Source: Dehalococcoidales bacterium
Lineage (GTDB): Bacteria; Chloroflexota; Dehalococcoidia; Dehalococcoidales; RBG-16-60-22
NCBI GenBank assembly: GCA_028714335.1
Contig: JAQTMM010000006.1
Location: 1-46,185, forward strand
Direction: 5' to 3'
DNA: 46,185 nucleotides
Shown here: piece by piece, positions 3,085-34,581 of the stretch
Layout: every line of letters starts with the position of its first letter
Numbering within the stretch: the first letter of the stretch is position 1
Program-made: the position numbers and the translations under genes
The notes under the pieces: generated by a model
What the model was told of the DNA's origin: nothing
Database searches by the model: none
The model's input: only the letters and a program-made list of their open reading frames with translations

Positions 3085-4125
3085 ATGAACACACCAAATA
3101 GTAATGTCCCGAATAGAAACGATTCCATCGAACGCAACCTTGCCATGGAACTGGTGCGCGTCACCGAAGCTGCCGCCATGTCCGCGGCTCGCTTTCTAGG
3201 CAAGGGTAACAAGAATGACGTAGACCAGGCAGCGGTCAACGCCATGCGCAATGTATTGGGTTTCGTACGGATGGACGGCATCGTAGTGATTGGTGAAGGT
3301 GAAAAAGATGAAGCACCGATGCTGTATATTGGGGAGAAAATTGGTGACGGTTCAGAACCTAAAGTAGATATCGCTGTTGACCCGGTGGACGGCACGACGT
3401 TGACGGCTAAAGGCTTACCCGGCGCGATTTCGGTTGTAGCGCTTTCCGCCAGAGGGACAATGCATTTCCCCCGCAACCTCGTTTATATGAATAAAATTGT
3501 TACGGATGCCGAAGCTAAAGATGTTCTGGATATTGACGCGCCGGTAGCCGAAAACATTAGAAGAGTGGCTGCCGCGAAAACTAAAAATATATCCGAGATA
3601 ACCGTAGTTGTTCTAGACCGACCGCGTCATGAAAAGCTGTTAGAAGACATCAGAAAAGCCGGAGCTAGAGTAAAGTTAATCTCCGATGGTGATATTGCCG
3701 CCGCTATCGATGCCGCGATTCCGGAAACAGATATAGATATGCTGATGGGTATTGGCGGAACGACGGAGGGCGTCCTTTCAGCCGCAGCGATACGATGCGT
3801 TGGTGGCGCAATACAATGCAAAGGCTGGCCCCGCAACGATAAAGAAAAACAGTCTGCTATTGATAAAGGAGAAGACCTTAAAAAGGTTTATACCACCGAA
3901 GACTTAATCAGCAGTGATGATGTATTCTTTGCGGCAACCGGCGTCAGTACCGGTGATTTATTAAAAGGGGTACGGTATTTCAGCGGCGGAGCATTTACGC
4001 AGTCAATCGCTATGCGCGGGCGCTCCGGTACAATGCGCTGGGTAGATGCCCGTCACAATTTCAATAAACTAGGAAAACTCGACGACATGAAATTTGTGAA
4101 AACGCGTAAATGGTCGCAAAGCTAA
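3085..4125 (+). CDS. glpX: Class II fructose-1,6-bisphosphatase (GlpX family)
   Basis: GEGEKDEAPMLYIGEKIG, DPVDGTT and GIGGTTEGVLSAAA motifs. Confidence 0.93.
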   Translation: MNTPNSNVPNRNDSIERNLAMELVRVTEAAAMSAARFLGKGNKNDVDQAAVNAMRNVLGFVRMDGIVVIGEGEKDEAPMLYIGEKIGDGSEPKVDIAVDPVDGTTLTAKGLPGAISVVALSARGTMHFPRNLVYMNKIVTDAEAKDVLDIDAPVAENIRRVAAAKTKNISEITVVVLDRPRHEKLLEDIRKAGARVKLISDGDIAAAIDAAIPETDIDMLMGIGGTTEGVLSAAAIRCVGGAIQCKGWPRNDKEKQSAIDKGEDLKKVYTTEDLISSDDVFFAATGVSTGDLLKGVRYFSGGAFTQSIAMRGRSGTMRWVDARHNFNKLGKLDDMKFVKTRKWSQS

Positions 4126-5329: not shown

Positions 5330-6445
5330 CTATCCTGGCACATCTACGGTTATCGTTGTGCCTTTTCCTGGCTCGGACTGCACATCCATTTTCCCGCCGA
5401 GGAGTTGAACACGTTCCTGCATACCCGCCAGTCCAAGTTTACTTTGCTTAGCCAAATCACCAATTTTGCCGGTCAGTTTAAAGCCCTTGCCGTTATCATG
5501 TATGGTGATTTTAGTACGGTTTTCGATAAACTCAACCATAATCTTGGCGCTGGTGGCTCCGGAATGACGCCAGACGTTGCGTAACGCCTCCTGAATGATG
5601 CGGAATAGGGCGATGGCAGCTTCCTCCGAGAGGCGATGTTCCTTACCGATTATCTGAACGTTGGTAGCAACTCCGGAATACTTGGTTACTTCCTCGGCGA
5701 GCCAGCGCACAGCCGGTAAGAGACCCAGGCGGTCAATGGCGGCGGGGCGCAGGTCCTGGCTTAAACGCCGCACGCCCTGCAGGATACTATCGGTCTGCTG
5801 CCATAATTCCTCAATGCGTTTTTTAGATTCTTCTGTCATACCGTTGCTGGCAGAAGTTAAAGCATCCAGCTGACGTGAAAGCACTACTAAAGCCTGGACC
5901 GTATCATCATGCAGTTCGTGAGAGATGCGCTTGCGTTCTTCTTCCTGGGCACGGGTAGCCTGCTGGAGGTAAAAGCGGAGGTTTTCATTCATCTTCTTTT
6001 GTTCGGTAATGTTGCGGGCGATGTTTTGAAAACCTACCGGCTTGCCTTTATCATAGATTATACTGGTGGAAAGCTGGATATAAACTTCGGTGCCGTCGCG
6101 CCGGACAACACGCTGTTCATAAGGTTGATCAACCGGTTCATTATTCAGCATTTTTTTTCTAATATTGTGGGCTAGTTCGAGACTTTCTTTTGACAAATAA
6201 TCCTTGGCATTGCCGTTATAAAGTTCTTCCCAGCTAATGCCAATCATATTGATGGCGGCTTTGTTGGCATTAATGAAATTACCGTTCAGGTCATGCATCC
6301 AAATGCCGTCAATGGCGTTGTCAAAAAGGTTGCGGTATCTTTCCTCGGAGGCTTTAAGCGCCTGCTGGGCCGCCTCGAGGCGAGCGACACAATCCCGCCG
6401 GAAACGAAACCATTCAGTTAGATGGCGGAAAAAGTTTATTTTCAG
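5330..6445 (-). CDS. PAS domain sensor histidine kinase (HisKA_3/NarX type)
   Basis: SHELHDDTVQALVVLSRQLDAL (HisKA_3) and HATPase motifs (NVWRHSGA, HDNGKGF, GLAGMQERV). The frame extends upstream of the ORF-track ATG as LKINFFRHLTEWFRFRRDCVARLEAAQQALKASEERYRNLFDNAIDGIW. The likely start is CTG at 6445. Confidence 0.87.
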   Translation of the reverse strand: MKINFFRHLTEWFRFRRDCVARLEAAQQALKASEERYRNLFDNAIDGIWMHDLNGNFINANKAAINMIGISWEELYNGNAKDYLSKESLELAHNIRKKMLNNEPVDQPYEQRVVRRDGTEVYIQLSTSIIYDKGKPVGFQNIARNITEQKKMNENLRFYLQQATRAQEEERKRISHELHDDTVQALVVLSRQLDALTSASNGMTEESKKRIEELWQQTDSILQGVRRLSQDLRPAAIDRLGLLPAVRWLAEEVTKYSGVATNVQIIGKEHRLSEEAAIALFRIIQEALRNVWRHSGATSAKIMVEFIENRTKITIHDNGKGFKLTGKIGDLAKQSKLGLAGMQERVQLLGGKMDVQSEPGKGTTITVDVPG

Positions 6446-7107
6446 GGTATGTCCTCCAGCGTCACCCAGCCCTCTTTAAGCGCCCGGACGACGGCTTCGG
6501 TTCGGGAGCTAACCTGCAGTTTATTAAAGATATGGCCAAGATGCGCCTGAACGGTGCGCAGGCTTAAACAAAGCTCGTCGGCGATGTCTTGGTTACTCAA
6601 GCCGCGAGTAGCTAGTTTGAGAACTTCAATCTCGCGCTCACTTAACATGTCCGTCGGTTTTTTCACCGAGCTTTTACCGGGGGCGGGGACAAAGCGGTTA
6701 AGGACCTTACGGGCGATAGAGGGGTGTAGCACCGATTCACCGCCATAAACCTGACGGACGGCATCGACAAGCTCACGGCCGCGCACGCTTTTAAGAAGAT
6801 AACCGGCGGCACCGGCTTCGAGCAGGCTGAATACAAACTGGTCATCATCATAGGCAGAGAGAATCAAAACGGCGATGGCGGGGTATTTTGCTTTTATCTG
6901 TTTGGTGGCTTCTATACCGTCAACGCCGGGCATGGCGATGTCAATTATAGCAACGTCAGGCTTCACAATCCCAGCCAATCTTATGGCGTCAGCCCCGTCG
7001 GCTGCCTCACCGACAACGTCCATATCAGGCTCCTGCGCCAGTATCTGACGAGTGCCGTCTCTAACGACCGCGTGGTCATCGGCGATTAATATCTTAATCT
7101 TTGGCAT
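6442..7107 (-). CDS. NarL/FixJ-family response regulator
   Basis: MPKIKILIADDHAVVRDGTRQIL receiver and LSEREIEVLKLATRGLSNQDIADELCLSLRTVQAHLGHIFNKL LuxR-type HTH; ATG at 7107 preceded by AAAAGGA. Confidence 0.94.
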   Translation of the reverse strand: MPKIKILIADDHAVVRDGTRQILAQEPDMDVVGEAADGADAIRLAGIVKPDVAIIDIAMPGVDGIEATKQIKAKYPAIAVLILSAYDDDQFVFSLLEAGAAGYLLKSVRGRELVDAVRQVYGGESVLHPSIARKVLNRFVPAPGKSSVKKPTDMLSEREIEVLKLATRGLSNQDIADELCLSLRTVQAHLGHIFNKLQVSSRTEAVVRALKEGWVTLEDIP

Positions 7108-30243: not shown

Positions 30244-32169
30244 TTACTTGGATTTGTAGCTTATTTTCGCAAAGCGCATTACATCCGTACCAGCGGAACC
30301 GGGGCGGCGGTCATATTCGAACTCGCGCGGTTCAGGCGTGATTTCTTCGCCGTGGTCGCTTAGTCTTTCCGCCTCGAGCATGGCTGCCTTAAGGCTCGCC
30401 TGCTTGTAGTCGGTCCAGGCATGGCTGTTGTAATATATGCCTTCCCGGGTAGACTTTTCTCTTTCGGCTCTAGCCTGCCTTTCCTGATTCCGTTCGGCGG
30501 TTTGCTTCTTGAAATAGCTGGTAACCTCATCGTTGTAAATCCAGGGACGTCTTCGGGACTTAATTTCAAGTTCCATTCTTTGTGCCTCCTGTTTTTTCTT
30601 TTCAATGCTTCGTTGTAAAGATAGCCAGTCGGGCTGGGGAGTTATTTTAACGCCTTCCGGCAGTTCAATCATGCCGTTTTTCAATGCCGGCGGCGGAGAT
30701 TCCTGTTTTTTCCAGTCGCGATTATAATGGGCGACATGCTGGGGCTGGGAGACGAATATCTCCTTGCGGGTTTTCGTCGAGGTTCTATTGGATATAGGCT
30801 GTGTTGTCCTTTCTCGATGATAGAATAAGCCGCGTTGAGACACGGGAATTGTGCCGGTTTCATCTAGATTTACTTCCAGCGATGTAACCGGGCGGCCGTA
30901 TATCATCGCCATATCAATCAGCTTGGGCATCAAGAAAAACACCACTACTGCCCGGAAAAGCCCTGAAACCAAAAATACAGACAATATCGTACTGCCGAAG
31001 ATGGGGAATATACCCCGGGTCAAAAAGACGCCGCCAACGCCGCCTAAAGCCGTAGAGAACAGAATCAGGCAGCGCGTGTAGACGATATAGCGTAGTTTCT
31101 TCTCCGGCGGGGCGACTTTATAGATATAGTTCTGGGTACAAAGGTCGAAAGCGCCCCAGGACATTCCGGAAATAATCTGAACGACTACCAGGTAGCCGAT
31201 ATTGGAGCAAAAAAGCCAGCATATTGGTATAGCCGGAAGAACTCGTGAAACAACGCTTAAAACGCGGATATTACCGGCTTTATCGGCATAACGGCCCCAG
31301 AAAGGTGCGCTGATTACCCTGGCGAGGTACTCCGAGGCGATAACGATGGTGAAGCTTAAATAGGAGAAATGCTTGTTTTCCAGCATGTAAACCACGTATA
31401 GCGGGCCGCTAACGCCCACGGTCAGGTAGAAAAAGGAGGTGAAAACAATAAAGGTGTCCAGTTTTTTCTCCTTAATTTCCTTCATAAAGGCGAATAAACC
31501 GAACTTGATGGGATAAATGGGCGCTTCGACATTGTTGAACCGTTTTGTTCTCGGTTCGTGCATGAAGTTGAAGATAACAAAATCCACCAGCGATACCACC
31601 ACCGCGATGACAAACACAAAACCGAAATTAGGCAGGCTGGTTTCGCCAAACGAGTCCATCATGTACCCCAGGAAACAAAATGCTCCGAGGTAGAAAGCGC
31701 TCTTGATAGCCAGCCTCTGGCCGATGTAACCCCCTAATTTCTCTTTAGGGGCAAGATTGGACAGCCAGTTATCGCGCTGGAAGGTCAAGAGCATCCCCGG
31801 CATGACATTTACGAGCCAGAGAAGCGCTATCCAGCCCGGTCCAACGCCGGCAGGCGCCAGGAAAAACATTAGAATAAGCGGCACCCACGCCAGTACGTTG
31901 AGGGCGGAGAGCGTAATAGCGCCTTTTTTGCCGCTGCCGATACGCTCGATTAATGAAGGCGCCTTGATACAAACCAGCGACAGCCCAAGGTTAACCAGCG
32001 TGGTAAAAATAGTAATGCTTTGCGCGCTGGCTCCGGCAGCGATTATCGAGGGCGACTGATAGCTGATGGCGGCATCATCCACCGCCGAAGCTGCCGCGTC
32101 TCCGTGAAAACGCAACAGGTTTCGTTCTTTCTTTTTATTAAGACTAAATTTCTTATCGGGGTAAACCAA
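30244..32169 (-). CDS. MFS transporter with long charged cytoplasmic C-terminal extension
   Basis: Around 12 hydrophobic segments with PFWGRYADKAGNIRVL, then about 180 aa rich in Lys/Arg/Glu. Confidence 0.82.
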   Translation of the reverse strand: MVYPDKKFSLNKKKERNLLRFHGDAAASAVDDAAISYQSPSIIAAGASAQSITIFTTLVNLGLSLVCIKAPSLIERIGSGKKGAITLSALNVLAWVPLILMFFLAPAGVGPGWIALLWLVNVMPGMLLTFQRDNWLSNLAPKEKLGGYIGQRLAIKSAFYLGAFCFLGYMMDSFGETSLPNFGFVFVIAVVVSLVDFVIFNFMHEPRTKRFNNVEAPIYPIKFGLFAFMKEIKEKKLDTFIVFTSFFYLTVGVSGPLYVVYMLENKHFSYLSFTIVIASEYLARVISAPFWGRYADKAGNIRVLSVVSRVLPAIPICWLFCSNIGYLVVVQIISGMSWGAFDLCTQNYIYKVAPPEKKLRYIVYTRCLILFSTALGGVGGVFLTRGIFPIFGSTILSVFLVSGLFRAVVVFFLMPKLIDMAMIYGRPVTSLEVNLDETGTIPVSQRGLFYHRERTTQPISNRTSTKTRKEIFVSQPQHVAHYNRDWKKQESPPPALKNGMIELPEGVKITPQPDWLSLQRSIEKKKQEAQRMELEIKSRRRPWIYNDEVTSYFKKQTAERNQERQARAEREKSTREGIYYNSHAWTDYKQASLKAAMLEAERLSDHGEEITPEPREFEYDRRPGSAGTDVMRFAKISYKSK

Positions 32170-32275: not shown

Positions 32276-32419
32276 TCAGGTAATAGAACTACAGGGTTTT
32301 ATATCAAAACCTTTATTTCCCAACAGTTGGCTTGGGTATAAAATGCCCTTGCCCCAACTGCCGGAGGTAAATCCATAGCCTGTTTCGCCAACCAGATGTC
32401 TTGCAACACCAGTTGTCAT
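32276..32419 (-). CDS. Uncharacterised small protein, 47 aa (absent from ORF track)
   Basis: MTTGVARHLVGETGYGFTSGSWGKGILYPSQLLGNKGFDIKPCSSIT; GGGAGG SD about 7 nt before the ATG. Confidence 0.55.
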   Translation of the reverse strand: MTTGVARHLVGETGYGFTSGSWGKGILYPSQLLGNKGFDIKPCSSIT

Positions 32420-32457
32420 GACGGCCCTCCCAATATAGAAAGAACTAAATTTAGGCG

Positions 32458-32580
32458 TTATTTGCCCAGAGCCGATTCCTGTTTCTTTCTGACCGGGCGG
32501 GTACCATGGCCATGTTTTACATTCTTGAAAGCTTCTTTATAGTTACGCCTTTGCGCTTGTTTTTCTGCTTTTCTGCCCAT
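32458..32580 (-). CDS. Uncharacterised highly basic small protein, 40 aa (absent from ORF track)
   Basis: MGRKAEKQAQRRNYKEAFKNVKHGHGTRPVRKKQESALGK; AAGGA SD before the ATG. Confidence 0.6.
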   Translation of the reverse strand: MGRKAEKQAQRRNYKEAFKNVKHGHGTRPVRKKQESALGK

Positions 32581-32644
32581 TTTAAGTTCCTTTATCTAGT
32601 TTCATTTACATCCATTATATCGTATTCGGTTATCCTATTACTAA

Positions 32645-32992
32645 TTAGGCGTGCTCCAGGACAAGCTGCCAGTCGCGCCAGTCGAAGATAGCCATATTCA
32701 GCACCAGCCGGCGCAGGGCTTCTTCCTTAGTAAGGATGTATAAAGCGACTTCGTTTTCGTAAGTGATGTCGAGAACTTCTTCACGGACCATTTCGTTTAA
32801 AGCCTCGCCCATCTCGGTGCGATTACATTCGTCGTCAATAGCGTGGATAATCGCTAATTTATTGAACCGGCCGTTGGGATGGGCGGCAAAGAACCTAAGC
32901 AGCCCCAGGCAATGATGATTGCTGATGAATTTCTTCATAAGCTCCTCGATGTACGAACGGCTCTTTTTCTTTTTTACTTCAATAATAGTCAT
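32645..32992 (-). CDS. Winged-helix-like hypothetical protein, 115 aa
   Basis: HHCLGLLRFFAAHPNGRFNKLAIIHAIDDECNRTEMGEALNEMVREEVLDITYENEVALYILT resembles a wHTH pattern. Confidence 0.65.
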   Translation of the reverse strand: MTIIEVKKKKSRSYIEELMKKFISNHHCLGLLRFFAAHPNGRFNKLAIIHAIDDECNRTEMGEALNEMVREEVLDITYENEVALYILTKEEALRRLVLNMAIFDWRDWQLVLEHA

Positions 32993-33103
32993 TATCGATT
33001 CCTTCCTTATTTATCTTCATTTACACGTTGTTGGCGATAGGAGATTTTAACGGCTGGTAAAATCCGCCGCTGCTTTTTCCCTCTCACCCCTTGAATCTGT
33101 TAA

Positions 33104-34318
33104 TTACCCGAGGAGCCTTAGCGCTTTCTTGAGTAAAACGTGAATACCTTTTTCCGTGGCGCGGGGTGATTCGGTGTCTTCGTTCTGTGACTGCCACAGG
33201 AGCAGGCCTACGCCCGTAGCATGTGCCGGATTATCCAGAACATCCCCTACCCCAGCCATACGCATCGGTACGCCGAGCCTGACAGGCATACGGGTAACCC
33301 GCTGCCCCAGTTCAGCAATACCGGGAAGATTTGCACCACCACCTGTAATAACGATGCCGGCGGGAATTAGTTTGTGGAGATCGTTTTGCGGCAGCTCAAG
33401 TATTACCAGGCGCAAAATTTCCTCTACGCGCAGGCGTATAATATCGGAAAGGTCATCGTAGGAAACGCTGTGCCCGTCGCCGGTAATCGAGACGCTTTTA
33501 TCCATTTTATTCTTGCTTTTTTCCCGCGGAGTGACATCGCCGTAGCGCTTTTTCATCTCTTCGGCCAGTTCATAGGTAACGCCCAGACCGATGGAGATAT
33601 CACGTGTAACCTGGTAGCCGGCAACCGGTAATACCGAGGTGTGGTAGATGTTATCGTCTTTGAAAATGGCAATATCGGTGGTGCCGCCGCCGATGTCCGC
33701 CAGCAGCACGCCGTCCTGTCTTTCTTCCGGCTCTAACACCGCTTCGGAACTGGCAAGGCATTCCATGACGAGGTCGTCAATCTCCACTCCAACGCTGCGG
33801 ACGCATTTAACAAGATTCCGCACCGAGGTTGCCGCCGCCGTGATAATATGGGTTTCTACGTCGAGGCGGCTGCCGTGCATGCCGGCGGGATTTTTAACGC
33901 CCATCTGACCATCCACTTGATAATCTCTCGGAATCACATGAAGCACTCTTTGTTCCGATGGGACTTTAACCGTACGGGCAACGTTTAGGACACGCTTCAT
34001 GTCCTCTGGGTAAACAATCTGGTTGTTCCGGGTAATCGAGACGGTTCCGGATTTATTAATTGAGGTAATATGGCGGCCGGTAACGCCGATATTTGCCGAA
34101 TCCATCTTACGTCCGGCCATCTGTTCCGCCATCCTGACCGACTGTCTAATAGATTCCTTCGCCTCGTTAAGACTTAATACGAGGCCTTTATGAAGACCGC
34201 GCGACGGGGTTACCCCAACCCCGATGATACGAAGGCCTTCATCACCGTAATCTTCCGCCATGATACTGCAGATTTTAGTAGTACCAATATCTATGGCGTT
34301 GACCTTAGTTTTTTTCAC
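33104..34318 (-). CDS. ftsA: FtsA-like cell division / actin-fold ATPase
   Basis: VNAIDIGTTKICSIMAE, GVTPSRGLHKGLVLSLNEA, LLADIGGGTTDIAIF, GIVITGGGANLPGIAEL; GTG at 34318 with ggagg SD. Confidence 0.85.
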   Translation of the reverse strand: MKKTKVNAIDIGTTKICSIMAEDYGDEGLRIIGVGVTPSRGLHKGLVLSLNEAKESIRQSVRMAEQMAGRKMDSANIGVTGRHITSINKSGTVSITRNNQIVYPEDMKRVLNVARTVKVPSEQRVLHVIPRDYQVDGQMGVKNPAGMHGSRLDVETHIITAAATSVRNLVKCVRSVGVEIDDLVMECLASSEAVLEPEERQDGVLLADIGGGTTDIAIFKDDNIYHTSVLPVAGYQVTRDISIGLGVTYELAEEMKKRYGDVTPREKSKNKMDKSVSITGDGHSVSYDDLSDIIRLRVEEILRLVILELPQNDLHKLIPAGIVITGGGANLPGIAELGQRVTRMPVRLGVPMRMAGVGDVLDNPAHATGVGLLLWQSQNEDTESPRATEKGIHVLLKKALRLLG

Positions 34319-34368
34319 AGGTGCCTCCTTTTTAGTATGATTCTTGTTAACTGTAAAAATACTGTTTA

Positions 34369-34581
34369 CTATTCCTTGGAATCGCGATAGCGGATATTCC
34401 ATTTGCTGCAGAGCGTCAGCAGGTGCTCTTTGAATTCCGGATTGGGATACCGGTAAAGCTCGGCGAGGAAGCCGTGCAGCAGTTCATTACCGGTCATGTG
34501 GGGATTAGATTCCTGCGGCCCAGGGAGATTGATGTACACGATTTCCGTCATTAGCCTCTGGTACTCGATAGGATTAGACAT
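34369..34581 (-). CDS. Small conserved-looking hypothetical protein, 70 aa, upstream of ftsA
   Basis: AGGAGGG SD before the ATG; same strand and adjacent to ftsA. Confidence 0.6.
   Translation of the reverse strand: MSNPIEYQRLMTEIVYINLPGPQESNPHMTGNELLHGFLAELYRYPNPEFKEHLLTLCSKWNIRYRDSKE

Follow-up and report, generated by a model that had tools for sequence, protein, structure and literature searches.

The window, a stretch of 46,185 nucleotides that forms contig C6 of a 1.74-Mb Dehalococcoidales assembly (89% complete), carries on its minus strand a series of genes in which two short open reading frames are embedded. Upstream lies a second type of ftsA (ftsA2, 33104-34402), followed by a gap (32993-33103) at the site usually occupied by ftsZ2 in ftsA2-linked relatives, and by the gene for a 115-aa winged-helix (wHTH) protein (32645-32992). 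The first short frame, sORF1 (32458-32580), encodes a conserved basic protein of 40 aa (pI 11.1, charge of ~+10), while the second, sORF2 (32276-32419), encodes 47 aa; an MFS transporter gene with a TTG start (30244-32169) lies downstream. Both short frames begin with ATG and were found, as an earlier note on this DNA had placed them, between the wHTH and MFS genes behind plausible ribosome-binding sites. For sORF1 this site, as read from the sequence, is AAAGGA (32588-32593) with a 7-base spacer, where most relatives carry a GGAG-like site, and for sORF2 it is GGGAGG with a 6-base spacer. A TATAAT hexamer (32614-32619, minus strand) upstream of sORF1 recurs in the corresponding region of five other loci (L030, L031, L033, L034 and L035) and may be a promoter element, although no convincing -35 element accompanies it and a computational scan did not report it. 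Separately, a 70-aa ORF overlapping the ftsA2 start (34369-34581) is present in conserved form at 11 of 32 loci and matches nothing in NCBIfam.

Frames of 40-50 aa are unremarkable alone, given 85 ORFs of at least 30 aa in 8 kb. Because ORFs of such size are common by chance, the case for sORF1 rests on comparison with relatives, those named in GTDB being metagenome assemblies of Dehalococcoidales/Dehalococcoidia (Chloroflexota). Each of the two peptides has counterparts at the corresponding position in relatives. Alignment of 28 intact full-length Dehalococcoidales copies of sORF1 reveals that all are exactly 40 aa long, with a stop codon directly after residue 40, 18 invariant positions besides the start and a mean column identity of 81%. 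Identity amounts to 90-100% within the genus, 75-85% within the family and 63-73% for intact copies elsewhere in the order. The initiation codon varies between ATG, GTG and TTG, always immediately before GRK, and is usually preceded by a GGAG-like site. Differences fall mostly in third codon positions (3913, 2656 and 9697 at positions 1, 2 and 3, respectively), and the median dN/dS is 0.13 over the 122 pairs without saturation; synonymous sites are saturated in 298 of 435 pairs. The window and its closest relative differ in 12 codons, of which 11 changed synonymously. An in-frame TAA interrupts the copy in one genome (L039/L061), and a further copy (L060) is interrupted by Ns.

It is highly improbable that the two ORFs are open merely by chance or that the true gene lies on the other strand: one antisense frame over sORF1 does stay open in 25 of 29 relatives as well, but the third-position bias, fixed length and 18 invariant residues all belong to the sense frame, as does the placement of start codon and ribosome-binding site. 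Codon-position bias thus refutes a chance frame for sORF1, and sORF2 is accounted for as the remnant of a cold-shock-domain (CSD) gene. The earlier note had held both ORFs to be real small proteins, to be judged by frame conservation and synonymous bias among relatives. sORF1 shows both, its frame being kept in close as well as distant relatives, and by selection and conservation it is a real gene, whose translation we infer; sORF2 does not stand as such a protein.

The sORF1 family appears confined to the order. A profile search detected it in 27 of 156 Dehalococcoidales genomes, one of them with the in-frame stop. Among 400 genomes sampled across the phylum, it was detected in just two, both of Dehalococcoidales and one of them that of the window, and in none from outside the order. 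No match was found in IMG/VR, phages, plasmids or viral contigs, and neither sORF1 nor sORF2 matches Pfam or NCBIfam. Comparison of sORF1 with the PDB, by profile and by fold, revealed no relative, and the literature searched on FtsZ and on small proteins of Dehalococcoidia contains nothing on the family. A weak second match, in G001 (contig C88, L107), was taken for a chance frame and not for a copy of sORF1. Taken together, sORF1 is well supported as a new lineage-restricted family of small proteins.

In seven relatives (G002, G005, G004, G001, G011, G007 and G018), sORF1 is followed by a gene for a 66-73 aa cold-shock (RNA-binding) protein. The proteins of G002 and G001, both syntenic with sORF2, match Pfam CSD (PF00313) with E = 5e-18 and 4e-17, respectively, whereas sORF2 has no match to this model at E up to 1. 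Descent of sORF2 from such a gene is nevertheless apparent from its identical position after sORF1 and from its alignable ends: 30 of the 43 residues shared with the G002 protein are identical, and sORF2 still has the N-terminus, the RNP1-like GYGF and, at the C-terminus, the KGF..DIKP end. About 21 codons are missing, comprising one in RNP2, ~19 after RNP2 and a few near the end, and RNP2 itself is damaged, with DIFFH replaced by GILYP. No other CSD gene was found in the window genome assembly; of the twelve relatives in the search, six carry a single CSD gene each, and in five of the six it lies at the sORF2 place. Over the 43 shared codons, sORF2 shows a dN of 0.20-0.27 from its relatives, compared with 0.13-0.17 for the G002 copy from the other three. 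Synonymous divergence still exceeds dN, so decay would be recent or function partly retained. Judged from these alignments, sORF2 is a decayed or shortened csp gene rather than an independent small protein, although it may also reflect an assembly error. It illustrates how a csp gene in decay can pass for a new small protein in a scan.

The earlier note had described a string of genes leading into the MFS transporter. This arrangement is not conserved, since the MFS gene lies downstream at just 4 of 32 loci (cluster c12), and synteny with it is incidental. The recurrent neighbour is instead the upstream ftsA2-ftsZ2(-wHTH) operon. ftsA2 lies just upstream of sORF1 in 16 of the 32 loci, accompanied by ftsZ2 in 14 of those 16, and the wHTH gene precedes sORF1 in at least nine, with ftsZ2 on its other side in several relatives. 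A tree of FtsZ resolves two clades in the order, FtsZ1, found in most genomes, and FtsZ2, to which every sORF1-linked FtsZ belongs. Linkage is not constant, however, and at the unlinked loci the neighbours of sORF1 are unrelated, for instance a lysine 2,3-aminomutase-like or a transporter-like gene (gene names as read from the sequences). The window and G002 have no ftsZ2 at this place: the wHTH gene comes directly after ftsA2, and an FtsZ1 gene lies elsewhere in the genome. The sORF1 copies of these two genomes (G000 and G002) are identical over 39 residues despite the loss of ftsZ2. Because sORF1 is kept where ftsZ2 has been lost and where it is unlinked to ftsA-ftsZ, it can act independently of FtsZ2.

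These observations bear on whether sORF1 is a partner of the second division operon (FtsA2/FtsZ2), for example by regulating FtsZ2 as a small basic protein or by serving as a nucleoid adaptor. Beyond the linkage to ftsA2 and to the FtsZ2 clade, FtsZ2 was found in 20 of 24 sORF1-positive compared with 11 of 30 sORF1-negative genomes examined (p = 0.0008), with hand-assigned classes, incomplete genomes and relatives counted separately, so that kinship is ignored. In this table G399, with its stop in sORF1, was entered as positive, and G003 as negative; since ftsZ2 of G003 reaches the contig end, its lack of sORF1 was not scored as a loss. Co-occurrence above expectation is thereby only suggestive, and genomes with unlinked sORF1 (G016, G024, G493, G511 and G519) still have FtsZ2. 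Against a role in division, the window genome and G002 keep sORF1 without ftsZ2, G514 has sORF1 while only FtsZ1 was found (genome 61% complete), and many FtsZ2-bearing genomes, such as G031, G034 and G038, have no sORF1. We therefore regard a partnership with the second division operon as unlikely.

Several further features of the division genes were observed. Dehalococcoidales commonly have two ftsA-ftsZ operons, each belonging to a separate clade (FtsZ loci L111-L179), and in G034 FtsZ and FtsA are each encoded four times. ftsZ2 persists in other members of the genus, while the window genome and G002 retain ftsA2 without this partner. Paired genes for distant FtsZ-like proteins of ~390-400 aa, scoring ~50-74 bits to TIGR00065 and lying a few kb apart, occur throughout the order; one pair is on contig C71 of G000 (3166-3795 and 6369-6977), with similar pairs in many relatives. 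In a fold comparison, a fairly confident structural model of the wHTH protein agreed best with ArsR-type repressors. Ranked second was TubR, which binds DNA and partners the tubulin-like TubZ. A TubR-like role of the wHTH protein beside the second FtsZ would be worth testing, an ArsR-type reading of the model being equally good.

The predicted structure of sORF1 comprises a helix at residues 3-19 (pLDDT ~80) and a weaker helix at 30-37, with a KHGHGxR segment between them; mean pLDDT is 72 and falls to 60-65 in the C-terminal half. Its invariant residues include Lys, Arg and His, with K22-H23 invariant. The strong charge together with these residues makes contact with nucleic acid its likeliest activity, and the suggestion of the earlier note that the basic peptide could bind RNA, ribosome or DNA was a reasonable inference from the sequence. 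Basic composition alone is unable to tell RNA, DNA, membrane and protein binding apart. Given ArfA, ArfT and BrfA as precedents, and a cold-shock gene downstream in part of the family, RNA or the ribosome is favored over DNA, both being indirect indications. Structure in or around the sORF1 mRNA is no better than in shuffled sequences (z = 0.3 to 0.7). The reading that we prefer, to which we give a little less than an even chance, is that sORF1 is a genuine Dehalococcoidales-restricted protein, likeliest a trans-acting RNA- or ribosome-binding accessory, and that sORF2 is a CSD gene remnant. The N-terminal basic helix, the KHGHGxR turn and the C-terminal basic helix would then contact rRNA or mRNA. 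Such binding is probably part of what sORF1 does, as far as charge and conservation indicate, while a core ribosomal role would fit poorly with its patchy distribution. A DNA-binding or nucleoid-associated protein would likewise fit the basic composition and the winged-helix gene that adjoins sORF1 in several loci, but sORF1 matches no known DNA-binding motif or family and we consider this improbable.

RNA or ribosome binding might take the specific form of release-factor-dependent rescue of nonstop ribosomes, in which a basic tail occupies the empty mRNA channel and the rest of the protein recruits RF1 or RF2 when tmRNA is insufficient, as with ArfT, BrfA and ArfA, small proteins with basic tails (PMC6299226, PMC6881298). 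A survey of 41 Chloroflexota genomes gives 41, 40, 11 and 0 in its first four gene columns, which we read as smpB, ssrA, arfB and arfA (PMC11633108). Within the order, tmRNA is widespread, with 110 of 156 genomes exceeding the cut-off, and ArfB is rare, with 8 of 156 above its cut-off, leaving room for a backup; these counts show only that a rescue role is possible. Exclusion of ArfB was rejected as a test of rescue, since G479 and G483 carry both ArfB and sORF1, a co-occurrence that itself speaks against rescue. Moreover, sORF1 matches neither ArfA in Pfam nor any rescue factor among PDB chains (E up to 10), has KHGHGxR...KK in place of a KGKGS-like channel-binding motif, and ends in E-x-ALG-K rather than in a long basic tail. 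Its gene also shows no terminator hairpin or missing stop codon, unlike arfA and brfA. Because homology, motif and nonstop-mRNA signature were not found, we rate rescue of this kind no higher than doubtful. That sORF1 is an independently evolved stop-codon-independent rescue factor, or another ribosome-binding regulator, of Chloroflexota we hold to be quite unlikely. Were it true, sORF1 would be the counterpart of ArfT and BrfA in this phylum, from which, to our knowledge, none has been described.

Whatever its activity, the family is compact (40 aa, 28 aligned intact sequences), is covered by no Pfam or NCBIfam model and adds to a phylum in which experimental genetics is scarce. Being so small and basic, with invariant residues, the protein lends itself to direct tests of ribosome binding as a synthetic peptide.

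Comparison with known systems places the two frames differently. sORF2 remains legible as a CSD protein in its N-terminal strand, GYGF, KGF..DIKP end and shared csp position, whereas its ~21 fewer codons in and after RNP2 put it under Pfam detection. sORF1 often lies downstream of the second FtsA-FtsZ operon of Dehalococcoidales, but it matches no known division protein and occurs elsewhere too. No sequence relationship to ArfT, the alternative rescue factor of Francisella, was detected for sORF1, yet ArfT is likewise a 40-aa protein of narrow distribution that annotation had overlooked, with a Lys-rich segment in its C-terminal half (PMC6299226). BrfA of Bacillus and ArfA of beta- and gammaproteobacteria differ in having 52 or more residues and nonstop-mRNA autoregulation, and neither gives a profile match. 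They resemble sORF1 in being small and basic, and the N-terminal helix of BrfA and the Lys-His contact that it has in common with ArfA (PMC6881298) parallel the predicted N-terminal helix and invariant Lys-His of sORF1.
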